Below are positions 27,298 through 45,746 of a stretch of 64,000 nt of DNA, one piece after another; position 1 is the first letter of the stretch, and every line of letters starts with the position of its first letter. Source of the DNA: Catellatospora methionotrophica (lineage in GTDB: Bacteria > Actinomycetota > Actinomycetes > Mycobacteriales > Micromonosporaceae); assembly GCF_011297335.1 (NCBI RefSeq), contig NZ_JAAOTJ010000019.1, forward strand, positions 1 to 64,000. The letters run 5' to 3'. Under the pieces are notes generated by a model. That model saw only the letters and a list, made by a program, of their open reading frames with translations. It searched no databases and was not told where the DNA came from. The translations under genes were made by a program, and so were the position numbers.

Positions 27298-27351
27298 CGA
27301 AGGAAGGGCACCTTCCTAACGGACGTCCGTTAGGAAGGTGCCCTTCCTTCG
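27298..27351. repeat. Family C: perfect 54-bp palindrome without loop
   Basis: 27298-27324 and 27325-27351 are exact complements with no spacer; the arm contains AAGGAAGGGCACCTTCCTAA. Each arm itself contains a small inner inverted repeat (GGAAGG/CCTTCC), so cross-shaped forms are possible. It begins 26 nt past the ribH stop, so it is placed as its terminator. Related pieces occur inside bioA (44579-44690). Confidence 0.93.
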
Positions 27352-38023: not shown

Positions 38024-38101
38024 GGAAAGTGGGACGCGGAGCGCCCTGCCGGTGTCGCGTGACGCCACCGGTAGGGGCGGGTCGGTCACCGGCGGGGTGG
38101 G

Positions 38102-43311: not shown

Positions 43312-44706
43312 TCAGGACGAACAGGCAGCAGCGGCCGCGTACATCGCCTTCGTGATGGCCGACACATCCTCATCGGAGCTGACGAACGGCGGCATCGTGT
43401 AGATCAGATCGCGGAACGGGCGCAGCCACACGCCGTGTCCCACCGCGGCGGCCGTGGCGGCCGCCATGTCAACGTCGTGGTCGAGCTGCACCACGCCGAT
43501 CGCGCCCAGCACCCGCACGTCGGCCACGCCCGGCAGCTCGCGCACCGGGGCCAGGCCCGCGCGCAGTCCGGACTCGATCCGGCGCACGTTCGCCCGCCAG
43601 TCACCCGACAGCAGCAGCTCGATGCTGGCGTTGGCGACCGCACAGGCCAGCGGGTTGCCCATGAACGTCGGCCCGTGCGCGAGCACCGGCACCGCGCCCT
43701 GCGAGATGCCCCGAGCCACCTCGGCCGTACACAGTGCCGCGGCCAGTGTCAGATATCCGCCGGTCAGCGCCTTGCCCACGCACATCACATCGGGTGTCAC
43801 CCCGGCGTGGTCCGCGGCGAACAACTCCCCGGTGCGCCCGAAGCCGGTAGCGATCTCGTCGAACACCAGCAGCACGTCGAACTCGTCGCACAGGTCCCGC
43901 AGCGCGCGCAGGTAACGCGGGTCGTGGAAGCGCATCCCGCCCGCGCCCTGCACCACCGGCTCGACGATGACCGCGGCCAGCTCGTGCGCGTGCGCCGCGA
44001 GCGCGTCCTTGAGCACGGTCACATAGGACTCGTCGTAGCCGGACGGGGGCGTGTCCACGAACACCTGCCGGGGGAGCACGTCGCCCCACAGGGAGTGCAT
44101 GCCGCCCTCGGGGTCGCACACGCTCATCGGCTGCCACGTGTCACCGTGGTAGCCGCCGCGCCACGTCGCCAGCCGCCGCTTGGCCGGGCGGCCCCGCGAC
44201 ACCTGGTACTGCAGACACATCTTGACCGCGACCTCGACGCTGACCGAACCGGAGTCGGCCAGGAACACGTGCTCCAGCCCGGCCGGGGTGATGTCGACCA
44301 GCGTCTTGGCCAGCCGCACCGCCGGTTCGTGGGTGAGCCCGCCGAACATGACGTGACTCATCCGCCCGAGCTGGTCGGCGACGGCGGCGTCGAGCACCGG
44401 GTGCCGGTAGCCGTGGATCGCCGCCCACCAGCTGGACATGCCGTCGATCAGCTCGCGCCCGTCGGCCAGGCGCAGCCGGACCCCTTGCGCGCTCCGCACC
44501 ACGAGCGGCTCGGCTCGCCCCGGCATCGGCCCGTACGGGTGCCACACGTGCGCCCGGTCGAGTTCCACCAGTTCAGCGAAAGGAAGGGCACCTTCACCAC
44601 GGTCTGCCACGTGCGCCCGGTCGAGTTCCACCAGTTCAGCGAAAGGAAGGGCACCTTCACCACGGTCTGCGTGGCGGAAGGTGCCCTTCTCGACCTCGTC
44701 GGTCAC
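43312..44706 (-). CDS. bioA: Adenosylmethionine-8-amino-7-oxononanoate aminotransferase with duplicated N-terminus
   Basis: Biotin synthesis enzyme that uses SAM as amino donor. The core shows [94 protein letters not shown] with the PLP lysine, and [22 protein letters not shown]. The 464-residue form is extended: residues 13-33 and 34-54 are two identical 21-residue copies containing [17 protein letters not shown], from a 63-bp tandem duplication. The GTG start overlaps the pyrD stop (GTGA). No other biotin gene is nearby, and it interrupts the pyrD-pyrF pair. Confidence 0.93.
44545..44670 (-). repeat. 63-bp exact tandem duplication inside bioA, with family C arms
   Basis: Copy 1 is 44545-44607 and copy 2 is 44608-44670, identical base for base. 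Each contains GGAAGGGCACCTTC (44582-44595 and 44645-44658), and its complement GAAGGTGCCCTTC follows at 44677-44689, so either copy can form a hairpin. The motif is the core of the family C palindrome at 27298. The period is 21 codons, so the frame is kept. Confidence 0.95.
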
Positions 44707-45742
44707 CGTGTGGCCTCCGGGGCCCGCCGCGCGGCGGCGTGCACCAGCGCCGGGCCGTGGTAGATGAATCCGGTGTAGAGCTGCACCAGGCTCGCGCCCG
44801 CGTCGAACATCCGGGCCGCGTCGTCGGCGCTCATCAGGCCGCCCACGCCGACGATCGGCAGGCGGCCGTTCGTCTCGCCGTGCACGAACGACACCACCTT
44901 GTGCGCCCGCTCGGTCAGCGGCGCGCCGGACAGCCCGCCCGCCTGCGCCGCCGTAGCCTGGTCGGCCGGGGCGACGCCGTCGCGGCTGAGCGTCGTGTTC
45001 GTCGCGATCAGACCGGCCACCCCGCGTGCCAGGCACACTTCCAGCAGCTCGGCGATGGCGTGTTCGGTCAGGTCGGGTGCGATCTTCACGAGCACCGGCC
45101 TGCCGCCTGCGGCGTCCGACTTCCCCGGGATCAGCGCGGCGAGGATCGCGTCCAGCTGGTCGCGGTCCTGCAGGCTGCGCAGGCCCGGCGTGTTGGGCGA
45201 GGACACGTTGACCGCGAAGTAGTCGCCGTGGGACCGCAGCGCGTCGTATGACGCCCGGTAGTCCGCTACGGCCTCCTCCAGCGGGGTCACCTTGGACTTG
45301 CCCAGCGAGATGCCCAGCGGCACGCCCAGCGGGCCGAGCGCCGCCAGCCGGGAGGCCAGCGCGTGCGCGCCCTCGTTGTTGAAGCCCATCCGGTTGACGA
45401 TCGCCCCGCTGTCAGGCAGCCGGAACAGGCGCGGCCGGTCGTTGCCCGGCTGCGCCAGCGCGGTCACCGTGCCGACCTCGACGAAGCCGAACCCGAGCGC
45501 GGGCCACGCGCGCAGCGCGACCCCGTTCTTGTCCATGCCCGCCGCCAGCCCGACCGCGTTCGGGAAGCGCACCCCGAACACGTCCACCGGCCGGTCCACC
45601 GCGTACCGCCGCTTGAGCAGGTTCAGCACGGCGGGCTGGCGGGAGATCCCGGCCAGCCGCCGCAGCGTCCACTCGTGCGCGTGCTCGGCGTCGCCGCCCC
45701 CGATCCGGAACAACCGGGGGCGGACGACCTTCTCGAACAGGG

Positions 45743-45746
<4 letters not shown>
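44703..45746 (-). CDS. pyrD: Dihydroorotate dehydrogenase (quinone), class 2
   Basis: Membrane-associated flavoenzyme that oxidises dihydroorotate to orotate and passes electrons to quinone. The 347-residue product has the class-2 N-terminal helix extension ([20 protein letters not shown]), [52 protein letters not shown] with the catalytic Ser, and [32 protein letters not shown] start overlapping the carB stop, and its own stop overlaps bioA. Confidence 0.96.

Follow-up and report, generated by a model that had tools for sequence, protein, structure and literature searches.

A palindromic repeat family of Catellatospora, probably translated at the start of BioA and partly duplicated there in one species

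The 5' end of bioA from Catellatospora methionotrophica carried a palindromic repeat and an exact 63-bp tandem duplication, and the best explanation found here, with a probability of roughly three quarters, is that residues 7-20 of BioA are encoded by an old repeat, part of which was afterwards duplicated only in this species. This repeat, a palindrome of 42 nt (14 codons) that is present in many copies and mostly lies a few bases past stop codons, is located 14 nt after the stop of pyrD and, with the bioA start on that stop, would have been translated in BioA since before the radiation of the genus. Slippage or a template switch, with one end at the hairpin loop, would then have duplicated 63 bp in this species only; composed of the right half of the hairpin and the next codons, these 63 bp would have lengthened by 21 residues the tolerant N-terminal stretch that precedes the conserved enzyme. 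The palindrome probably represents a new family of a known kind, the palindromic repeats some of whose copies encode protein, known from Rickettsia.

The pyrD-bioA locus and its tandem duplication

The window, i.e. the whole analysed stretch of 64,000 nt, contained pyrD and bioA as neighbors, the TGA of the former and the GTG of the latter overlapping by four nt. The features considered here were as follows.

43312..44706, minus strand: bioA, 464 aa if the GTG at 44706-44704 is the start; NCBIfam bioA TIGR00508, 560.5 bits against a cut-off of 405
44703..45743, minus strand: pyrD, quinone-dependent dihydroorotate dehydrogenase, immediately 5' of bioA; NCBIfam TIGR01036 (364 bits) and NF003652 (465 bits)
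44714..44718, minus strand: GGAGG, Shine-Dalgarno-like, 7 nt 5' of the bioA GTG (direct reading of the sequence)
44647..44688, minus strand: 42-nt palindromic element, encoding BioA residues 7-20 in frame if that GTG is used; orthologous in 11/11 genus genomes
44677..44689, minus strand: left arm of the hairpin, single copy, GAAGGGCACCTTC in mRNA sense
44646..44658, minus strand: right arm of the hairpin, within the start-proximal 63-bp unit
44583..44595, minus strand: extra right arm, product of the duplication
44608..44670, minus strand: 63-bp unit, start-proximal copy, with its outer edge one base before the hairpin loop
44545..44607, minus strand: 63-bp unit, start-distal copy, whose last codons encode the conserved BioA stretch LDRAHV
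27303..27346, no strand assigned: second member of the palindrome family in the window, between two minus-strand genes; counterparts at the matching place in G010 and G006

Core GAAGGGCACCTTC was found on the plus strand at 44583-44595 and 44646-44658, and its complement at 44677-44689. With up to two mismatches, the window displayed six core sites against 1.29 expected, a number that none of 100 shuffles reached. As bioA would start on the pyrD stop, the hairpin located there would read as BioA residues 7-20. The spacing between the GTG and the conserved core of the enzyme was 48 codons, holding the complete 42-nt hairpin and most of the duplication. A 65-nt stretch with the full element folded at -36.7 kcal/mol (z -5.3). 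At gathering thresholds, Rfam returned nothing in the window beyond one 16S rRNA fragment; positions 1-81, at the end of the contig, fell within the 5' end of a minus-strand 16S rRNA gene.

The two 63-nt copies (44545-44607 and 44608-44670) were 100 % identical, and their array obtained a Tandem Repeats Finder score of 252, the next best of 17 rows for the window being 71. Their translation gave two identical 21-residue blocks, in frame and ahead of the conserved WHPYGP. The original prediction had described precisely such an exact duplication, in register and preceding the BioA homology, with a core in each block and the complementary core closer to the start; all of this was recovered. Each unit began one base ahead of the hairpin loop and ended with the codon preceding WHPYGP, combining the right half of the hairpin (from the loop) with the start of bioA proper. 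Since the unit begins at the loop, the right arm was repeated and the left arm was not; with the left arm present once, the duplication gave one hairpin and a spare right arm, not two hairpins. One breakpoint lay at the loop, which suggests that the hairpin may have promoted the slippage behind the duplication. Reading of the sequence revealed no microhomology at the edges of the duplication, and the repeat could not be shifted by a base either way.

The duplication was present in one of the 11 genus genomes, all ten congeners (one genome per species) displaying a single copy. G010, the closest of the five congeners compared, was 92.4 % identical over 63.5 kb. If the duplication were as old as the split from G010, about five differences between its copies would be expected; none was observed, so that it most likely postdates this split. 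Exact identity had originally been taken to imply either a recent event or active copy-number change. The recent event was retained, while active change found no support among genomes that represent one strain per species. The 21 additional residues fell into a BioA segment that varies in length across the genus and lay ahead of most of the positions found invariant when 17 BioA sequences were aligned, the first of these being D50 and H53 in the second block. Taken alone, the 63-bp duplication is a modest event of a common type.

Sequence, spread and position of the repeat family

Copies were gathered with a relaxed pattern of two AAGGNNNCCTT arms, an inner C and G and 5-30 nt in between, which allows lengths of 29-54 nt. 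It matched 106 places in the 8.39-Mb genome and none in the reversed control. The strict arms AAGGGCACCTTC...GAAGGTGCCCTT occupied 85 places in the same genome, 39-201 places in nine congeners and a single place in the tenth (G009); elsewhere in the family Micromonosporaceae, they were found once each in three of the other 189 genomes sampled. With relaxed arms, G009 contained 183 copies, which among the matches listed were mostly of the GGGCCC/GGGACC type; nearly all of its approximately 50 copies among these matches had another core type. The ureF copy of this genome (L238) had changed with the genome type (GGGTCCC), and its bioA copy (L019) kept the GGGCACC type, as if homogenisation had reached only one of these two coding copies. 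Several other genera of the family harbored tens to more than 100 copies, at least one match being present in 52 of 121 genomes. At the level of the order, a slightly narrower pattern matched 22 of 150 genomes, which belonged to this family, to family f15 and, once, to family f16. A partial literature search (titles and abstract starts) recognised no published description of this family.

Of the 106 copies, 67 were examined, consisting of 50 listed places (contigs C1-C21) and 17 BLAST hits on later contigs; two fetched loci (L180 and L185) were set aside, as the pattern matched no element in them. Eroded copies escape exact patterns: those in bioA of G004 and G009 and in ureF of G010 were recognised by alignment or by sequence, and the bioA copy of G006, missed by the pattern script, was placed by coordinates and included in the alignment. 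Measured between the outer arm ends, 51 of the 67 copies were exactly 42 nt long (range 29-45). Their arms were nearly fixed and their inner 18 nt variable, 50 of the 51 interiors of 42-nt copies being distinct; the interiors folded better than half-swapped interiors (1/200 swaps as good). The median minimum free energy of the 67 elements was -29.6 kcal/mol.

Most copies were located close to stop codons. The facing stop codon lay within 22 nt for 46 of 65 sampled copies (median 13), and 32 of 35 copies between tandem genes were closer to the upstream stop than to the downstream start (p = 4e-7). Of 64 copies, 27 lay in convergent and 2 in divergent gaps, the corresponding numbers among 132 background gaps (>=42 nt) being 17 and 35. 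This background, drawn from the window, from 76 kb of G010 and from the remaining gaps in the fetched loci, is partly redundant and, as it derives in part from one syntenic region in two species, not fully independent. Genes around the 67 copies were called with a simple codon-usage gene finder; in the window it trimmed bioA and overlooked pyrF, so that starts are rough and stop codons firmer. The 3' flanks of 65 copies gave the consensus C C T T/A A/C C/G, devoid of a U-run. The placement of the copies is that of a 3'-end hairpin or terminator, from which we infer that the hairpin would normally act as an RNA 3'-end or terminator structure. As a terminator, it may partly uncouple bioA from pyrD.

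The counterparts of element 27303-27346 in G010 and G006 differed from it at paired positions on both sides of the stem, an indication of selection on pairing; no pattern match was seen at this place in G003, G009 and G007. G007 carried an element of its own after a gene (L226:6510-6551, corresponding to about position 38063 of the window), the window and four other syntenic genomes being without a relaxed-pattern match there. This G007-only element is probably a case of turnover of copies between species.

In-frame copies in ureF, scpB and bioA

At least three of the 67 sampled copies lay in frame within genes, namely in ureF, in scpB and, if the overlapping start is used, in bioA. The ureF element (Pfam UreF; L162:1698-1739, G000:C12:201147-201188) was located mid-gene and was read in a frame different from that of bioA. 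Ten of the 11 species carried it in frame, G010 with eroded arms; it was missing in G008 and in both outgroups aligned (G011 and G013). The scpB element (Pfam SMC_ScpB; L059:1501-1542, G000:C2:24312-24353) was located near the N-terminus and was in frame in eight of 11 species, being absent from G004, G008 and G009. In all 11 species, M[TS]D.ESL.QQAA.WVPPWAR preceded its place and the ScpB domain followed, and with conserved sequence on both sides this copy is surely translated, as judged from the alignment. The right arm core of the scpB element was oriented like the left arm core, and the centre of the stem was unpaired. Where the element was lacking, both ureF and scpB displayed variable linkers.

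The in-frame copies of ureF and scpB indicate that coding copies are real in the genus. As 51 of the 67 copies consist of exactly 42 nt, i.e. whole codons, events in frame would disrupt less. In the bioA tree, the three species free of the scpB element grouped together (support 1.0), the remaining eight forming the second clade (0.977). Presence was consequently nested: bioA in all species, ureF in both clades minus one species, and scpB in one clade. The distribution of the ureF element would reflect either a single gain followed by a loss, or repeated gains. An ABC permease copy (L049), considered as a second case similar to bioA, was rejected, an SD-like GAGGAGG and a TTG start being found after the hairpin.

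The bioA hairpin was in frame in all 11 genus genomes, with one copy each and an extra right half in C. methionotrophica, and in none of 19 loci from other genera, 16 of them within the family. Different palindromes were noticed in the pyrD-bioA spacer of two other genera (G018 and G016; loci L032 and L035). The bioA palindrome is thus as old as the genus, the duplication alone being recent. The original prediction, in which a dispersed palindrome had become bioA coding sequence, gained from the in-frame copies of ureF and scpB and from the ten congeners, all of which carried the bioA element in frame where an absence had been named as the finding that would count against it; its entry, however, dates back to the genus and formed no part of the recent event.

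In an alignment of the 11 bioA hairpins, 129 of the 130 cells of the arms were paired. Of the four arm pairs that varied, three changed only to G-U (in mRNA sense) and the fourth was broken in one species; the inner stem was broken in G008, G004 and G009. Covariation among these hairpins (10 distinct) did not exceed that of shuffles, 95 of 500 of which reached it. Third-position bias over the first 22 bioA codons of eight species was not clear (variability 6, 4, 7).

Alternative explanations and known systems

The exact start of bioA is the weakest link of the preferred reading. At 14 nt past the pyrD stop, the bioA copy occupies a position typical of the family and can therefore be regarded equally well as a 3' hairpin of pyrD and as an insertion in bioA. 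That it might be the former only, with BioA starting after it, a coincidental GTG and a duplication partly in untranslated spacer, is unlikely, even though this canonical spacing would suit such an arrangement. Among 21 tandem spacers no longer than 260 nt, that of bioA counted in, nine had an open frame through the hairpin, and openness was consequently rejected as proof of translation. Later in-frame start candidates were available in eight of the 11 species, and in G007 and G001 a GAGAGG/GGGAGG followed by an in-frame GTG/TTG lay downstream of the hairpin. For REPs, whose intragenic copies are described as biased to gene ends in many species, it has been cautioned that most of those in N-terminal coding regions are perhaps extragenic owing to misannotated N-termini (PMC3733652). 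On the other hand, G005, G008 and G009 displayed no other in-frame ATG, GTG or TTG ahead of the bioA core. The start at offset -4 from the pyrD stop was the sole in-frame start common to all 11 genus genomes and recurred in six of 14 outgroup genera with pyrD adjacent. Moreover, distances from GTG to core (28, 30, 31 and 35 codons, and 49 with the duplication) differed by whole codons throughout, and the same element is translated in ureF and scpB. We infer from this that the GTG on the pyrD stop would be the start actually used.

Insertion of a mobile REP or MITE into bioA, moved by a tyrosine transposase, is rather doubtful. It would account for a copy number that is high and differs among species, for the turnover of element positions in the syntenic 64 kb, and for presence or absence in scpB and ureF. 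Yet among 134 flanks of 12 nt the tetranucleotides GTAG and CGTC occurred twice and once, respectively, and 64 of the 67 copies were without flanking direct repeats of the kind left by MITEs (3-9 nt, symmetric offsets 0-7), matches of 3 nt being found in three. REPs of the GTAG type are associated with a RAYT transposase gene; none of the three Y1_Tnp genes of the genome had an element within its 3.4-kb locus, leaving a transposase link for the palindrome unsupported. There is little probability that the arms of a gene-end hairpin family are made uniform genome-wide, coding copies included, and that the pyrD-bioA copy serves both as RNA attenuator and as BioA N-terminus, with tuning by the 63-bp copy number; the ureF copies of G009 and G004 did display core types common in their own genomes. 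An assembly artefact seems very improbable: the assembly is a draft of 56 contigs and only one of 11 genomes displayed the duplication, but the frame was kept, and an array of 126 bp is shorter than common read lengths and of a type that assemblers tend to collapse, not to expand. Hardly to be expected, finally, is a contingency switch in which BioA synthesis is tuned by the number of 63-bp units or by which of the two right arms pairs with the left one. The single left arm, which starts 18 nt away from the first nucleotide of the start codon, has two identical right arms that can compete for it. Minimum-energy and centroid folds of the whole region nonetheless paired the left arm with the near right arm, the duplication was confined to one genome, and an extra arm within 200 nt was rare (2 of 67 elements, that of bioA included). 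The originally suggested influence of alternative hairpins on BioA translation was thereby left unsupported, the minimum-energy fold keeping the ordinary hairpin.

Among known systems, Rickettsia palindromic elements (RPEs) are palindromic repeats described as lying in frame within genes (PMC2229807, PMC10969869, PMC2635572). The family resembles them as a dispersed palindrome located between genes and also fused in frame, seemingly tolerated, within unrelated genes (PMC2229807, PMC10969869). In-frame copies were found here in three unrelated protein genes (ureF in 10/11, scpB in 8/11 and, if the overlapping start is used, bioA in 11/11 species). RPEs are, however, described as 105-146 bp long against 42 nt here, and the present family belongs to actinobacteria, its intergenic copies hug stop codons and one coding copy is partly duplicated. 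Rickettsia provides the best-known cases of palindromic repeats lying in frame within unrelated housekeeping genes; here such repeats were encountered in actinobacteria with large genomes. The nested distribution, widest for bioA, then ureF, then scpB, would allow one to test directly how a non-coding repeat turns into protein and whether selection keeps the hairpin or the peptide; an ordinary genus-wide comparison is enough for this.

Inverted-repeat DNA uptake sequences of Neisseria and Haemophilus, located at terminators, are fixed short sequences that occur as inverted pairs at gene ends. The palindrome family is likewise based on one fixed short sequence in inverted pairs at gene ends, but its arms are 12-13 nt long, its inner stem is variable and no link to DNA uptake is known. 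GTAG/CGTC REPs are described as short stem-loops situated mostly 3' of coding regions, between convergent and unidirectional genes, with some intragenic (PMC3733652); the family shared this location mainly downstream of coding regions (46/65 within 22 nt of a stop, convergent excess) and differed in the end tetranucleotides. U-poor hairpin 3' ends have been reported in Streptomyces clavuligerus, and such U-poor ('I-shaped') intrinsic terminators of GC-rich bacteria resemble the family in being stable hairpins right past the stop without a U-run (PMC8269248). Of the usual traits of intrinsic terminators, the elements thus displayed the stable hairpin shortly after the stop and lacked the U-run; they further differ from the U-poor kind in that one nearly fixed arm sequence is found at about 100 sites per genome, and their terminator role is putative. 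In one further place (L164:2422-2463), an element overlapped the 3' end of a called gene and seemed to supply its last codons and stop.
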